In this document: piece after piece, positions 16,606-29,848 of the stretch | Numbering within the stretch: position 1 is the first letter of the stretch | How the letters are laid out: each line of letters starts with the position of its first letter | Assembly: GCA_902196205.1 (NCBI GenBank) | Contig: CABIKM010000044.1 | Coordinates: 1 to 40,168, forward strand | Source of the DNA: Candidatus Methylomirabilis lanthanidiphila | GTDB taxonomy: Bacteria; Methylomirabilota; Methylomirabilia; Methylomirabilales; Methylomirabilaceae | Reading direction: 5' to 3' | Length of the DNA: 40,168 bases | Translations under genes and position numbers: made by a program | Notes under the pieces: model-generated | Told to the model about the DNA's origin: nothing | The model's database searches: none | What the model saw: the letters and a program-made list of their open reading frames with translations, nothing else

Positions 16606-17007
16606 TTAGCCGATCCGGACGATTACTCGACGATCGCGAGGACCGTCGAACTCCATGAGCATGATGCTCTGCCACGCGCCCAACATCAGTCGCCCCTGCT
16701 TCACCGGCACTGTTTCACTCGGGCCGAGGATGGCCGCTTTGATGTGGGCCGCTGCGTTGCCGTCGATCCGGTCGTGGCGCCAGATCCCCTCCGGGATCAG
16801 CTTCACCAGCGCCTCCTGAAGATCGTCGCCGATGTTCGGGTCGGCATTCTCGTTGATGGTGACCGCCGCAGTCGCATGCGGCACAAAGACACAACAGAGC
16901 CCCTCGTCTAGGCCGCCCTGCGCCGCGATCTCCCGAACCCTCGGCGTAATGTCGATCACTTGAGATAGTTGCGTCGTCTTGATGACGAACTCGCGCATCT
17001 GCGGCAT
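16606..17007 (-). CDS. YjbQ family (UPF0047) protein, copy 1
   Basis: A 133-residue UPF0047 protein with VFVPHATAAVTINENADPN near residues 41-59 and the block GNAAAHIKAAILGPS followed by GRLMLGAWQSIMLMEFDGP. E. coli YjbQ has promiscuous thiamine phosphate synthase activity; the true role of the family is unsettled. The ATG shares its A with the PHP gene stop (TAATG), so the two are coupled. An in-frame ATG three codons later is also possible. A second, divergent copy lies at 19446-19883. Confidence 0.88.
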   Translation of the reverse strand: MPQMREFVIKTTQLSQVIDITPRVREIAAQGGLDEGLCCVFVPHATAAVTINENADPNIGDDLQEALVKLIPEGIWRHDRIDGNAAAHIKAAILGPSETVPVKQGRLMLGAWQSIMLMEFDGPRDRRVIVRIG

Positions 17008-19445: not shown

Positions 19446-19883
19446 TCAACCCTCTTTTGCGGCCAGTATCTGGAGTTGAATCTGCCGCTCTCTCGGGCCG
19501 TCCAACTCGGCAAAGATAATCGACTCAAAGGTCCCGAGGCTCATCTCCCCATCCACAACCGGAACCGAGAGCTGCCGACCAAGTAGAAGCGAACGAAGAT
19601 GCGACGCGGCGTTGCTCCGATCACAATCAGAGTACGATGGATCGTTGTGCCGATAGCCGTTTCCCTGTTCGACCAGGCGGTCCAGGAGAAGCTGAACATC
19701 ATGGAGTAATGCTTCCTGCCACTCATTAATGAACAGCGCAGTCGTCGTGTGAAGGGAATTGAGAATGATCAACCCCTGCTTGATCTTATGCCCCTGCAGC
19801 AGATCTCGCACACGCTTTGTCAGGTCCATGAACTGGAGTCGATCCTCCGTCGCTACCGTAAACGTCTCGTGCCTGATTACCAT
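19446..19883 (-). CDS. YjbQ family (UPF0047) protein, copy 2
   Basis: 145 residues with NSLHTTTALFINEWQE and SNAASHLRSLLLGRQ followed by GEMSLGTFESIIFAELDGPRER, so it is a UPF0047 relative of the gene at 16606, but clearly diverged: the central segment carries an insertion (YRHNDPSYSDCDRSN) and the INENADP block has become INEWQEA. The ATG at 19883 is chosen because GGAGGGAGG lies directly upstream. The function is unproven. Confidence 0.85.
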   Translation of the reverse strand: MVIRHETFTVATEDRLQFMDLTKRVRDLLQGHKIKQGLIILNSLHTTTALFINEWQEALLHDVQLLLDRLVEQGNGYRHNDPSYSDCDRSNAASHLRSLLLGRQLSVPVVDGEMSLGTFESIIFAELDGPRERQIQLQILAAKEG

Positions 19884-20035
19884 GCCTCCCTCCGTTAGGT
19901 TGCACATTCCTCACACAGGTGTTTGCCGCCTTGGATAACGGCACCACCATCCTCAGACGGTAATCCGCACTACCGTCCATCATGAATGTCCTGCCATCGC
20001 GCCTCAACCGTCATTCCTCTCATCGCTTTGGCCGG

Positions 20036-20497
20036 CTACCAGTCAGGGTGGAGGTCGGGCCGCTGCTTCATCGCCTCCGTCAACGGCGTCATCAGACGCT
20101 CCTTCCCGTACACAAAATCACCCCGCTCGTAGGACGCAATCTCGTACTGCTTACCCAACACAATCGCCTCCTCCGGACAGGCTTCCTCGCAGTAACCGCA
20201 AAAGATGCAACGCAGCATATGGATCTTGTATGTCTTCGCGTACCGCTCACCCTTGGAGTGGCGTTCCTGCTCAGTGTTCTCGGCCGCCTCGACATAGATC
20301 GCGTCTGCCGGACAGGCCACCGCGCACAGTTCGCAGCCCACGCACCGCTCCATCCCGTCGTCGCCAACCACCAGCATGTGCAGACCCCGGTAGCGAGCCG
20401 CGAGTGGAAGCCGCTCCTCCGGATAGGAAACCGTCACCGGCTTTCGGAAGATATGTTTGAACGTCGTCGCCATCCCTTTGACAATCCCGCTAATCAT
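20036..20497 (-). CDS. nuoI: NADH-quinone oxidoreductase subunit I (cluster 1)
   Basis: NuoI carries the two 4Fe-4S clusters (N6a and N6b) that pass electrons to NuoB. The 153 residues contain CVGCELCAVACPADAI and CIFCGYCEEACPEEAI, each supplying the CxxCxxCxxxCP pattern, after an N-terminal amphipathic region (MISGIVKGMATTFKHIFRKP). The ATG at 20497 is chosen: AAGGTGG lies just upstream; a GTG three codons earlier is possible. It follows nuoB by a short gap, with no other complex I gene adjacent. A second nuoI lies at 28779. Confidence 0.93.
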   Translation of the reverse strand: MISGIVKGMATTFKHIFRKPVTVSYPEERLPLAARYRGLHMLVVGDDGMERCVGCELCAVACPADAIYVEAAENTEQERHSKGERYAKTYKIHMLRCIFCGYCEEACPEEAIVLGKQYEIASYERGDFVYGKERLMTPLTEAMKQRPDLHPDW

Positions 20498-20531
20498 CGT
20501 CGCCACCTTGAACGCGCCGCACGCGACTTTC

Positions 20532-21083
20532 CTACGCTACCTTTTTCCAGGGAAGATGGAAGAGGCCCTGCTTACTCGGCCGCTCCTTGGCAATCTTTTC
20601 CTGCAGCAGCATGATCCCGTGGATCAACTGCTCAGGTCTTGGCGGACAGCCAGGCACGTAGACATCGACCGGCACAATCTGGTCTACACCCTGGACGATG
20701 GTATAGGTATTGAAGATGCCGCCACAGGACGCACATGCACCCATAGCGATCACCCACTTCGGTTCCGGCATCTGATCGTAGATCCTTCTGAGGACCGGCG
20801 CCATCTTGCGGCTCACGCGGCCGGCCACAATCATCAGGTCGGACTGACGCGGCGATCCACGAAAGACCTCGGCCCCGAATCGCGCCAGATCGAAACGTGA
20901 CGCCCCTGTTGCCATCATCTCAATCGCGCAGCAAGCGAGTCCGAAGCTCGCCGGCCAGATCGATGACTTCCTCGCCCAATTGACCAGACTGTCCAGGGTT
21001 GTCAGGAGGAGGCCCCGCTCAAATTCCTGCTCCTCCTCCTTCGTAGACGGAGTGTCGATATCTGTATCTGTCAACTGAAGCAT
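20532..21083 (-). CDS. nuoB: NADH-quinone oxidoreductase subunit B (cluster 1)
   Basis: NuoB holds cluster N2, the last iron-sulfur centre before quinone. The 183 residues include the cysteine pair in [11 protein letters not shown], the third ligand in [19 protein letters not shown] and the fourth in [19 protein letters not shown] adds one cysteine where the second NuoB here has GACAIS. A GAGGGG ribosome site precedes the ATG. It is transcribed with the nuoI at 20036, forming a stand-alone nuoBI pair. Confidence 0.94.
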
Positions 21084-22586: not shown

Positions 22587-22692
22587 CGTTGATCTCGCCA
22601 TCCTCGCCTGCTTCCGGCCTCATGCTCCACACTTCTTGAATCTCAAGGCGTCGGCCATTGCCACATGCCTCGCACAGCAGACAATCGACTCC
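22583..22692 (-). pseudogene. Decayed copy of the apgM 3' end (direct repeat, left copy)
   Basis: The minus strand here encodes VAMADALRFKKCGA and a stop (22622-22620), matching the intact ApgM C-terminus LAIANALRFKKFGA. The similarity continues into the 3' flank: TCAACGTTGATCT here against TCAATCGTTGATCT at 25189. Further upstream the reading is frameshifted. The segment is in the same orientation as apgM, so the two copies are direct repeats bracketing the radical SAM and flippase-like genes. I judged the similarity by eye. Confidence 0.7.
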
Positions 22693-22773: not shown

Positions 22774-23820
22774 TCACAGCAGGGTGTCCGATTCCGTCCG
22801 AACGGGCACGCTTCTCAGCCGTCGTCGACTCAGCGCCATCTCCAACCAGTACGTCGCCAGGCCGACCGCCGTCCAGAATATCTGGTTCAGTCGCAGGATC
22901 ATTGAAAATGCGACGCCCTCAGCAAACGTAAAGCCGATCGTCCTTTCGAAGATCAGCGCGCGTGTCAGCTCCTGTGTGCCGAGCCCGGCCGGCACCATGA
23001 AGATGACGCAGTCGAACCAGCTACCGAAGAACCAGATCGTCGATGCCTTCGCCCAGTCGTTCACACCGAAGACACACCAGAGGAAAAGCCCGGCCTGTGC
23101 GATCCCCGTCGTGAACCCAAGGGCGTGCCAGAACATCGCCAGGAGCAGTTCCTTCCTCTGCGTTTCATAGTGACTGCGCAGCCGGCCGTCCATCTCAGAC
23201 AGGTTCGTTTCGACCCACTCGCGCGCTTGCCGCCCGGCAACAGCCCCTACGACGCGGCCGAGAAAGTCGCCGAACCGCCCCTGCCGCTGGAAGATCAGAA
23301 AACCGATAAAGCCGCCCCACATGAGCGCGCTCGCGGCCCAGAACGTGAGCTTCACGCCAAGGTCGATCGGCGTCCAGGCCAGGACCACCGCCGATCCCAG
23401 AAAGGCCAGCCCAAACTGCACGATACTGTACGTGAACTTGTCGATGATCACCACTCTCGCCGCTTCGCTGCGCGGGACATGCTTTTCCAGGAGCATGGCC
23501 TTCACCACCTCGCCGCCGAATCCGGAGGTCGGCGTGATGAAGTTGTAGGCCGCGGCGGTACAGCGCGCATACAGCAGATTAACCAGCGGTACCTTCGGGC
23601 TCTCCCGGCTGAAGCAGTAGCGTGTCGCCATCGCGCGCATGACGTCGCCCACTCCCTCCAGGGCTATGAAGAGGCCGAGTCCGAAGCCGAAACGCACGAC
23701 GCCCCCCCACAGATCCCGCGGCCCTGCCTGGTAGAGCAGATAGCTGAAGAGCACCACACCGATGAGCGGTACGATGGCGTGGAGGATCCGAAGACCGCGC
23801 CTGCCCGTATTCTGGCTCAT
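22774..23820 (-). CDS. Flippase-like membrane protein (UPF0104/LPG synthase TM family)
   Basis: 348 residues with about eight hydrophobic helices (ILHAIVPLIGVVLFSYLLYQAG, FGLGLFIALEGVGDVMRAMATRY, VVIIDKFTYSIVQFGLAFLGSAVVLAW and others) and the family blocks NFITPTSGFGGEVVKAMLLEK and VFMVPAGLGTQE-like VPAGLGTQELTRALIF. These mark the TIGR00374/PF03706 group, which includes the membrane part of lysylphosphatidylglycerol synthase, glycolipid flippase-like proteins and hopanoid-associated HpnL. The aminoacyl-transferase domain is absent. Its ATG shares its A with the radical SAM stop (TAATG), so both proteins likely act on one lipid. The substrate is unknown. Confidence 0.85.
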   Translation of the reverse strand: MSQNTGRRGLRILHAIVPLIGVVLFSYLLYQAGPRDLWGGVVRFGFGLGLFIALEGVGDVMRAMATRYCFSRESPKVPLVNLLYARCTAAAYNFITPTSGFGGEVVKAMLLEKHVPRSEAARVVIIDKFTYSIVQFGLAFLGSAVVLAWTPIDLGVKLTFWAASALMWGGFIGFLIFQRQGRFGDFLGRVVGAVAGRQAREWVETNLSEMDGRLRSHYETQRKELLLAMFWHALGFTTGIAQAGLFLWCVFGVNDWAKASTIWFFGSWFDCVIFMVPAGLGTQELTRALIFERTIGFTFAEGVAFSMILRLNQIFWTAVGLATYWLEMALSRRRLRSVPVRTESDTLL

Positions 23821-25022
23821 TAGTGTTCGGTAAGCTGGCAGCAGCGGTTGCAGATTGGCAGAAGCCCACCTTGTTCGGACAGCATCCGCCGAAAGGTCTG
23901 GTATCTGTCGCCGAACCAGATATCGAGAAACGGCTGCTCGTTGACGTTCCCCATCGAGAGCGGCTCATCCGCGAAGAGGTTGCACGGGTAGACCTGACCG
24001 TCAACGTCGATCGTCGGCTCAAGGTAAGGCACCGGGCAGTGCGTGCGCCCGAGGTTCCAATTATAGTTCGTGTAGAGCTTCGGAATCTCCGCCAATGGGA
24101 TCGACGGGAGGTGGTGAACGAAGAAGTCGTAATCCTTGGTCTTGAGTCGGCGAATCGTCTGCTCGATCTCCTTCGCCTCCTCCTCGAAATCGCGATAGTC
24201 CTCAACGAACCCCTTCCAGCTCGTAAGGCCGTTCACACCGAAGTACTGTGCGACAATCTTGTTATAGGCTTCGCCCGTGGCCGTGGACATCCAGATCGGG
24301 TTCGACTTGATGGTGAGCACGTCCAACAGCCCTTTTCCGGCCAGCTCCTCGCAGAGCTTGTACAGTGACAGGCACCTGTTGTGGCGTGTCATGGTGAAGC
24401 TCACTTGCACGAGCGGCGTATGCCGATTGCGGCGCTCGCGCTCCGCAATGATCGCCTGCAGCCCCTCCATGGTCCTGTCGTACGCCCACTCCGCTTGGCG
24501 CACAAAATTGTGCGCCTGCTCATCGCCGTCGACCGACACATGGATCGCATCGATCCCCGCATCGACTAATTCTCCCGCATACTTCTTCAAAAGCGTACCG
24601 TTGGTAACGGGCTTCACGAAGAGACGATGGCGCTTGAGCATCTGGAAGAGCTCGATGATCTGTGGATAGAGAAAGGTCTCGCCTCCCTCTATGTCGACGT
24701 ACCTGAGGCCGTGCGGCGCGAGCTCCTTCACAACCCCCTCGATCACGTCGAGCTTAAGTGTGCGCTGGAGCTTGGCGGTATCATAACTGAAGTAGGTTCC
24801 TGTGTCGCCCCATTGGCCGCACATCTTACAGCGGAGGTTACAGCCGTAGATGATGCGCAGGTCGAGCTTGACAGGATAGAAGGTGCCTTGTGCGGGAAGG
24901 TCATTGTGCGCGAGCCGTTTGGCAGTCTCGTTGTAGGCGCTCCTTCGCAGGACAAAGTAGTAGTAGCGCGGGTTTTCGACGACGCCCTGGAGGAGGCGCC
25001 AATACAGGCCGACTCTTGACAT
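23820..25022 (-). CDS. Radical SAM/SPASM protein of unknown substrate
   Basis: 400 residues. The radical SAM cluster motif CNLRCKMC is at residues 61-68, followed by the SAM-binding GGE block (DIEGGETFLYP), a TNGTLL stretch and HVSVDGDEQAHN. The C-terminal SPASM-type region has Cys in HCPVPYLEP, VYPCNLFADEPLSMGN and ICNRCC, enough to hold auxiliary iron-sulfur clusters. GGAGAGGAGAT just before the ATG at 25022 fixes the start; an ATG five codons upstream lies within that ribosome site. It is not an HpnH-type hopanoid enzyme, which lacks this tail. Coupling to a flippase-like protein suggests lipid or glycolipid modification. Confidence 0.88.
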   Translation of the reverse strand: MSRVGLYWRLLQGVVENPRYYYFVLRRSAYNETAKRLAHNDLPAQGTFYPVKLDLRIIYGCNLRCKMCGQWGDTGTYFSYDTAKLQRTLKLDVIEGVVKELAPHGLRYVDIEGGETFLYPQIIELFQMLKRHRLFVKPVTNGTLLKKYAGELVDAGIDAIHVSVDGDEQAHNFVRQAEWAYDRTMEGLQAIIAERERRNRHTPLVQVSFTMTRHNRCLSLYKLCEELAGKGLLDVLTIKSNPIWMSTATGEAYNKIVAQYFGVNGLTSWKGFVEDYRDFEEEAKEIEQTIRRLKTKDYDFFVHHLPSIPLAEIPKLYTNYNWNLGRTHCPVPYLEPTIDVDGQVYPCNLFADEPLSMGNVNEQPFLDIWFGDRYQTFRRMLSEQGGLLPICNRCCQLTEH

Positions 25023-25188
25023 GATCTCCTCTCCCATACTGCATCATCTACGACACTGCGCGTCTGGCGCATAAGGCAATCATGGTGCTATGCGAGGGTC
25101 CTTGAGCCCCACAGGGAAACCCGCCTTCGCCGAATGGGGTTTCAACGCTCGCGGCGCGCCATGGTCGACGCCAACCGGACCCGACACG

Positions 25189-25287
25189 TCAATCGTTGAT
25201 CTGATAGCCCCGTGTTTCCTGCCTCATGCCCCGAACTTCTTGAATCTCAGCGCGTTGGCGATAGCCAGAGGGATAAGATCGACTGCT
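25189..25287. repeat. apgM 3' end and flank (direct repeat, right copy)
   Basis: The last codons of the intact apgM and about 35 bases after its stop are repeated in decayed form at 22583-22692, in the same orientation. The CTTCTTGAATCTCA core and the GTTGATCT flank match; the rest diverges. Confidence 0.7.
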
Positions 25288-28778: not shown

Positions 28779-29309
28779 TCAGGAAGAGGGCGCCGCAGCG
28801 ACCGCCTCTACCTTCTCGGGCTCCGGCTCGGGAGTAGGCGCCGGCGGCTTTTCTGGAGTCATTGGAGAGGGGTAGTAACGATCTGCCGTCAGGGCCTTGA
28901 TATCGAAGACCAGGTCGCTGCGCACAGGGGCGCTCAGTTCGCCGATCCGGGTCCACATCGTAATGGCGTCGAAGGGGCAGACCTCGACGCACAGGTTACA
29001 GTACATGCAGAGGTTGTGGTCGATTTGGAAGGCGGACGGGTGGCGGCTCTTGCCCTTACCGGTCCCCGTAAGCTCGATGCAGCGGGTGGGGCAGATCCGA
29101 GCGCAGGCCTCACAGGCAGTACACTTGAGCTGTCCCGTCGTCTCGTCGATCGTGAGTACGTGGCGGTTCAGCGCCCGTAACGGCTGTGTCCGATGCTCAT
29201 CGGGATACTGGACAGTAATCGCGCGGGTGAAAAGGTACCGGAGCGTCACCTTCATCGAACGAAGGATACTGACGCTTCCGCCGAACAGATCTGAAAAATA
29301 GCGTCCCAT
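28779..29309 (-). CDS. nuoI: NADH-quinone oxidoreductase subunit I (cluster 2)
   Basis: 176 residues with CTACEACARICPTRCI and CMYCNLCVEVCPFDAI, the two 4Fe-4S motifs of NuoI, after an N-terminal segment resembling the other copy (MKVTLRYLFTRAITVQYPDEHR). The C-terminus is extended by a Pro/Glu-rich tail (TPEKPPAPTPEPEPEKVEAV) that the copy at 20036 lacks. AAGGGGG precedes the ATG, 12 bases after nuoB. The protein is diverged from the first NuoI, so it was not recently duplicated. Confidence 0.92.
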   Translation of the reverse strand: MGRYFSDLFGGSVSILRSMKVTLRYLFTRAITVQYPDEHRTQPLRALNRHVLTIDETTGQLKCTACEACARICPTRCIELTGTGKGKSRHPSAFQIDHNLCMYCNLCVEVCPFDAITMWTRIGELSAPVRSDLVFDIKALTADRYYPSPMTPEKPPAPTPEPEPEKVEAVAAAPSS

Positions 29310-29320
29310 AGCGTTCCCCC

Positions 29321-29848
29321 TTAAGCCGCCACCAGGGGCTCGGGCAAGGTAGGCCGGCCGCCTGGTTTCGCGCGCTCGCCGCGCATGATCTGATCCTGCA
29401 GGGTCAGGATGCCGAAGATGAGCGCCTCAGGAGTAGGCGGACAGCCTGGGACATAGACGTCGACCGGAACCAGCAGGTCCACCCCCTTGACGACATGATA
29501 GGCGTCGTAGTAGAAGGGGCCGCCGGAGATGGCACAAGCGCCCATGGCAATCACCCACTTGGGGTCGGGCATTTGCTCGTACAGCGTCTTGATGCGAGGC
29601 GCCATTTTCTCGGTGACGGTCCCGGCCACGATCATCACATCGGACTGGCGCGGCGACGGGCGAAAGACCCCCGCCCCCAAACGGTCAAGGTCGAAGCGGG
29701 AGGCCCCGGCAGCCATCATCTCAATTGCGCAGCAGGCCAGGCCGAAGGTCATCGGCCAGGGGGAGGATTTGCGAGCCCAGTTAAAGAGCCACTCGACCGT
29801 TGTCGTAATGACGTTCGGCTCGATCTGTTTGTTGTCGAACAACCCCAT
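29321..29848 (-). CDS. nuoB: NADH-quinone oxidoreductase subunit B (cluster 2)
   Basis: 175 residues with the N2 cluster ligands: [32 protein letters not shown] and [13 protein letters not shown]. Compared with the copy at 20532 it is clearly the same family but differs along its whole length. AAGGAGATC precedes the ATG at ideal spacing. It sits between nuoG and nuoI; nuoC, D, E, F and the membrane subunits are not here. Confidence 0.94.

Follow-up and report, generated by a model that had tools for sequence, protein, structure and literature searches.

We propose, at somewhat below even confidence, that a radical SAM enzyme (rSAM) and a predicted flippase (flip1) encoded side by side in Candidatus Methylomirabilis lanthanidiphila form a cassette, subject to gain and loss, that supplies a phosphoinositol-type lipid pathway, whose genes lie elsewhere in the genome, with one step of modification and one of translocation. 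The original prediction had the pair modify and move an undescribed lipid or glycolipid; the lipid part of this is partly supported, and the gene contexts narrow the undescribed compound to a probable inositol-type phospholipid.

The pair lies in a stretch of 40,168 nucleotides from this genome (G000), hereafter the window, with the rSAM gene first and the flip1 gene next:

23820..25022, minus strand: radical SAM/Twitch enzyme, 400 aa (PF04055 and PF13186 above cut-off; orthologues)
22774..23820, minus strand: flip1, a UPF0104/HpnL-like multi-span membrane protein of 348 aa, predicted flippase (TIGR00374 and TIGR03476 scores; orthologues)
23818..23822, minus strand: TAATG stop/start overlap, one base, of the rSAM and flip1 genes (sequence)

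Both open reading frames and the TAATG overlap are present where the original prediction had placed them. The rSAM start at 25022 (MSRVGLYW, 400 aa) agrees with the Methylomirabilis orthologues, and an alternative in-frame ATG at 25037 appears less likely as the start. Among the Methylomirabilis genomes compared, the overlap is restricted to G000; in relatives, the two genes abut (TAG-ATG, TAA-ATG) or are spaced by 11 nt (G010) or 179 nt (G006). According to Pfam and NCBIfam, the neighbors of the pair are apgM upstream and a class V aminotransferase of the cysteine-desulfurase type downstream. Farther out in the window, the region is flanked on both sides by two similar pairs that look like the complex I proteins NuoI/NuoB by sequence appearance (20036-21083 and 28779-29848), and two small proteins recognized by eye as resembling YjbQ/UPF0047 are encoded close together (16606-17007 and 19446-19907).

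Across genomes, rSAM and flip1 are neighboring genes in each of the six Methylomirabilis genomes that could be checked (G000, G006, G008, G009, G010, G014); G011, whose contig ends within rSAM, was left out of this count. The concern that the two genes might rarely be adjacent elsewhere is thus not borne out within Methylomirabilis, but adjacency does not hold in two Myxococcota genomes: there, the flippase relative is encoded on a contig other than that of rSAM, and next to rSAM is either an MFS transporter gene or one for a DUF3604 protein. In a seventh Methylomirabilis genome, G001, the rSAM orthologue directly follows a different flippase-like gene. The orthologues are 84-87% identical in Methylomirabilis, 69% in G001 and 64% in the two Myxococcota for rSAM, and 80-82% for flip1. 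The rSAM subfamily is narrow: among Methylomirabilota it occurs in Methylomirabilis only (8 of 95 genomes), and in one Myxococcota class it occurs in 2 of 91 genomes. More distant relatives are found in Acidobacteria (30-34% identity) beside an M64 peptidase and an LpxL-type acyltransferase, and in G095 (30-33%) among GT2, GT4, a DegT aminotransferase and WbqC; because these relatives adjoin different gene sets, the wider rSAM family probably serves several envelope pathways. In the GC-rich Myxococcota loci, codon-model gene calls are partly antisense ORFs, and assignments there were made from homology and Pfam. As a separate observation, rSAM relatives in the Acidobacteria loci L014, L015, L016, L017 and L018 recur near a lipid A-type acyltransferase; most of these loci also have a B12-binding radical SAM protein or an M64 peptidase.

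The enzyme passes the Pfam cut-off for radical SAM proteins (PF04055, 72.1 bits, cut-off 29.5), and its C terminus passes that of the SPASM profile (PF13186, 53.7 bits, cut-off 21.5). Its conserved cysteines fall into two groups:

24819..24842, minus strand: CX3CX2C radical SAM motif (C61, C65, C68) in CNLRCKMCGQWG, invariant in 13 aligned relatives
23838..24038, minus strand: Twitch domain cysteines C329, C347, C391, C394 (and C395), invariant; the first four align with the BtrN Twitch

The original description of a SPASM enzyme with a cysteine-rich C terminus holds for the radical SAM fold and the profile match, but not for the class. The seven-cysteine SPASM motif CX9-15GX4C..CX2CX5CX3C..C, as defined in PMC6231123, is absent from rSAM, and the 13-sequence alignment has five C-terminal cysteines common to all members; judged by these residues, the C-terminal domain is a BtrN-like Twitch domain and not a full SPASM domain. 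In a phmmer comparison with BtrN, C329, C347, C391 and C394 align with the Twitch cysteines, the match covers residues 327-396 only, and no similarity over the full length was found. The BtrN Twitch domain holds a single auxiliary cluster with four cysteine ligands, the proposed acceptor of an electron when an alcohol undergoes two-electron oxidation (PMC9012708, PMC6231123). As the tie to BtrN is confined to this domain, the reaction of rSAM is one that we infer; and since SkfB, MoaA and BtrN all have a Twitch domain (PMC6231123), similarity in it does not predict the reaction. The structure model of rSAM is of moderate quality (pLDDT 70.5), and Foldseek returned many SPASM/Twitch enzymes at similar scores, with no function singled out. 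As originally predicted, rSAM is not of the HpnH type (TIGR03470, 54.5 bits, cut-off 225.05), and every named maturase family listed by NCBIfam scores far below its cut-off.

For flip1, the original assignment to the UPF0104/LPG-synthase family survives in part. The protein is barely above the cut-off of the NCBIfam 'flippase-like' family TIGR00374 (43.5 bits, cut-off 43.2), and a paralogue elsewhere in G000 with 28% identity is a PF03706 member; against this, the Pfam search of flip1 gave no match at E<=0.1, PF03706 included, and HpnL (TIGR03476), its best named match at 86 bits, stays below the cut-off of 195.65. A structure model built from two sequences was of no use (pLDDT 40.9). UPF0104 proteins are predicted lipid flippases (PMC5898192), and on this family resemblance flip1 would translocate a lipid. 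Its closest Myxococcota relatives reach 176 bits, as compared with at most about 106 bits for paralogues in Methylomirabilota. In the flippase tree, which included two of these Myxococcota flippases, L108 and L109, both group with flip1 with a support of 100/98, on a long branch that was flagged as a possible artefact.

What may tie the pair to inositol is a conserved phosphoinositol-type cluster of Methylomirabilis, which in species other than that of G001 runs in the order TldE, TldD, flip2, HAD, NTP transferase, ATP-grasp-like protein, class III aminotransferase, Gfo/Idh dehydrogenase, CDP-alcohol phosphotransferase and myo-inositol-phosphate synthase. The synthase matches PF07994 and PF01658. 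The CDP-alcohol phosphotransferase has IPCT/DIPPS-type similarity (92 bits, NCBIfam) and the Gfo/Idh dehydrogenase IolG similarity (NCBIfam), both below the equivalog cut-offs; the ATP-grasp-like label is our own reading of a protein that has no match in Pfam or NCBIfam. Flip2 is the cluster's own flippase and distinct from flip1. In G001, and only there, the rSAM orthologue lies inside this cluster, between the TldE/TldD genes and the remaining genes, immediately downstream of a PF03706 LPG_synthase_TM protein that is 23% identical to flip1. We considered contamination of this contig, as the genome is 8% contaminated, and rejected it: CinA and TldD on the same contig are 80-93% identical to those of other Methylomirabilis. 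The Myxococcota flippases nearest to flip1 (L108, L145, L146) likewise adjoin homologues of the same cluster genes, and a CDP-alcohol phosphotransferase is the recurring neighbor of related flippases in Methylomirabilota (9 of 24 loci). All eight rSAM-bearing Methylomirabilis genomes encode both inositol-phosphate synthase and CDP-alcohol phosphotransferase, in G000 not next to the pair, which there is on another contig than the cluster. The cluster is found in 8/8 of these versus 13/15 Methylomirabilis overall, a co-occurrence that is not significant. Several cluster-bearing genomes have no rSAM, so the enzyme is optional to the cluster.

Some further features of these loci deserve mention in their own right. 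A TldE/TldD-like pair is constantly beside the cluster in Methylomirabilis (L091:4063-7192; equivalents in L141-L144). A second, different radical SAM enzyme is present in the G001 cluster (L091:10950-11972) and, in G062, beside a flippase and a CDP-alcohol phosphotransferase (L067:499-1419). The rSAM of G001 also adjoins a 404-aa membrane protein, a homologue of which precedes the flippase-like gene in ten genomes of family f7 (L059, L061, L065, L070, L072, L075, L076, L077, L079, L081).

The state of flip2 suggests how the cassette and the cluster may be connected. The G000 cluster is complete save for flip2: compared with G003, it has lost about 910 bp between TldD and HAD, and the deletion remnant consists of about 25 codons in which the flip2 N terminus can still be matched (L140:11406-11560, contig C55). 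The cassette-bearing G010 lacks flip2 as well, while all cluster-bearing, cassette-free genomes that were compared (G003, G004, G005, G012, G013) have kept it. The loss thus affects two of six judgeable cassette-bearing genomes versus none of five cassette-free ones; apparent truncation or loss in G008 and G014, where the contigs end, was not counted. Flip1, flip2 or both are encoded in each of the 13 Methylomirabilis genomes with the cluster; the two genomes of the genus that are cluster-free, G002 (81% complete) and G007 (94% complete), lack rSAM and both flippases. The pattern is suggestive of flip1 replacing flip2, in numbers that are small and not significant.

That the pair behaves as a cassette can be read from its genomic site. 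It sits between apgM and the cysteine desulfurase, and G001, G003, G004 and G005 have the same flanking genes without it. In the window, it is flanked by a direct repeat:

25213..25267, minus strand: upstream copy of the 55-nt direct repeat, at the apgM 3' end and just beyond (sequence comparison)
22609..22663, minus strand: downstream copy of this 55-nt repeat, a decayed apgM 3' end; the sequence after it matches the G003 empty site

The two copies, both derived from the apgM 3' end, are 82% identical and 2604 nt apart. The sequence just past the downstream copy matches the gap between apgM and the cysteine desulfurase in the cassette-free G003, G004 and G005, and G009 has a similar apgM remnant after its flippase gene. 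No recombinase gene was found within the cassette. The repeat and the empty sites would be accounted for equally by an insertion at the apgM end that came with a duplication and by a loss via recombination between the repeats. In the apgM tree, cassette-bearing and cassette-free species are intermixed, with the cassette-free G003 nearest to G000 and G004 nearest to G014, at modest support; joint gain or loss of rSAM and flip1 has therefore probably happened on more than one occasion.

How could the pair act on the product of the cluster? In the proposed mechanism, inositol-phosphate synthase, the nucleotidyltransferase and the IPCT/DIPPS-type CDP-alcohol phosphotransferase would place an inositol-like head group onto a lipid at the cytoplasmic side, and the IolG-like dehydrogenase, the aminotransferase, HAD and the ATP-grasp-like protein would tailor it. 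The Twitch rSAM would then abstract a hydrogen from an (amino)cyclitol or sugar head group, leading to oxidation with the auxiliary cluster as electron acceptor, as modeled on the BtrN proposal for 2-deoxy-scyllo-inosamine. Finally, flip1 would move the modified lipid to the outer leaflet, replacing or supplementing flip2. Both the inositol-type lipid as substrate and oxidation as the reaction are our inferences. A bolder version, which we regard as speculative and on the doubtful side, casts rSAM as a Twitch dehydrogenase or epimerase acting on an inositol-derived lipid head group, that is, lipid-bound aminocyclitol chemistry, and forming with the flippase a mobile cassette that alters the surface lipid of nitrite-dependent methane oxidizers.

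As ALTERNATIVES to the favored reading, we weighed a different lipid such as a hopanoid, a glycan as the substrate, a RiPP system and hitchhiking. It is conceivable, if rather unlikely, that the pair modifies and moves a different envelope lipid, such as a hopanoid or another glycolipid, independently of the inositol-type cluster. HpnL as the best named match of flip1 and the lipid A acyltransferase beside the Acidobacteria relatives point this way, but the HpnL and HpnH cut-offs are clearly missed, for which reason a hopanoid assignment was rejected, and the G001 orthologue and the Myxococcota flippase relatives are positioned with the inositol-type cluster. The CDP-alcohol phosphotransferase that recurs next to related flippases in Methylomirabilota speaks against a glycan role, in which the sugar tailored by rSAM would belong to a surface polysaccharide or to an undecaprenyl-linked glycan, with the UPF0104 protein aiding export, as proposed for archaeal AglD-type flippases. 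UPF0104 proteins have been linked to archaeal glycosylation (PMC5898192), the G095 relatives keep company with glycosyltransferases, and the flippase relative of the Myxococcota genome G099 adjoins a PMT-type transferase and an epimerase; yet the pair has no adjoining glycosyltransferase in any Methylomirabilis genome, and we consider this role unlikely.

The remaining two explanations dispense with a shared lipid or glycan. Were rSAM a RiPP maturase, with the membrane protein exporting a peptide or protecting against it, one could point to SkfB and SuiB among the best Foldseek matches, but rSAM has no RRE domain in Pfam, no peptide-maturase family scores above its cut-off, and the gaps around rSAM in G010 (9-11 nt) and upstream of it in G006 (9 nt) are too small for a precursor. 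The other gap sequences around rSAM share no small ORF beyond ancestral intergenic DNA. Neither a peptide-modifying family nor a nearby precursor, the findings that would have spoken against the original prediction, was encountered, and with no RRE, no precursor and no space, we rejected a RiPP system as highly improbable. Hitchhiking of rSAM and flip1 without a joint function would suit their narrow distribution and their separation in Myxococcota. The close linkage in six genomes, the rSAM of G001 separately adjoining another flippase-like gene, and the rare flippase in both rSAM-bearing Myxococcota genomes versus 5 of 89 others argue against it and make it improbable.

If the favored reading of a cassette serving an inositol-type lipid pathway is right, a radical SAM step would be added to inositol-lipid synthesis, an unassigned Twitch subfamily would gain a testable substrate class, and an unrecognized polar lipid would be predicted in bacteria that are important as methane sinks. 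Inositol lipids are regarded as fairly rare in bacteria (PMC9246714). A radical SAM step was not found described for any known inositol-lipid pathway, and in the open-license literature no paper on Methylomirabilis with inositol was found by title and abstract.

Finally, we would like to compare the pair with known systems. HpnH and HpnL of hopanoid biosynthesis also combine a radical SAM enzyme with a UPF0104-type membrane protein, but our pair misses both curated cut-offs and no hopanoid gene is among the neighboring genes read. BtrN, the 2-deoxy-scyllo-inosamine dehydrogenase of butirosin biosynthesis, shares the Twitch domain with aligned cysteines and acts on an aminocyclitol; in contrast to rSAM, its chain has about 270 aa rather than 400, its substrate is soluble, and the sequence match lies in the Twitch domain alone. 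The gpgSDF operon of Pseudomonas aeruginosa and hexSDF of Clostridioides difficile join a head-group enzyme and a predicted flippase in one operon, GpgF being a UPF0104 protein, but use a glycosyltransferase and a deacetylase instead of a radical SAM enzyme to make GlcN-PG or an aminohexosyl glycolipid (PMC12713373). An enzyme with a UPF0104 flippase for one lipid is hence a known arrangement, as gpgSDF illustrates, and the 'novel system' of the original prediction was too strong a term. A close parallel to the Methylomirabilis gene set is offered by the Bacteroidetes inositol-lipid clusters, BT_1522-1526 and the B. vulgatus-like alternative, which have an inositol-phosphate synthase, a CDP-alcohol phosphatidyltransferase, an NTP transferase and a HAD hydrolase, with an LPG-synthase homologue as a recurrent neighbor of both (PMC9246714). 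Radical SAM enzymes and aminotransferases go unmentioned for them in the main text of that paper, whereas Methylomirabilis has rSAM and one flippase in a separate cassette, as well as an extra ATP-grasp-like gene, an aminotransferase and an IolG-like dehydrogenase. What is new here is thus the radical SAM step, its likely tie to an inositol-type lipid, and the patchy gain and loss of the cassette.
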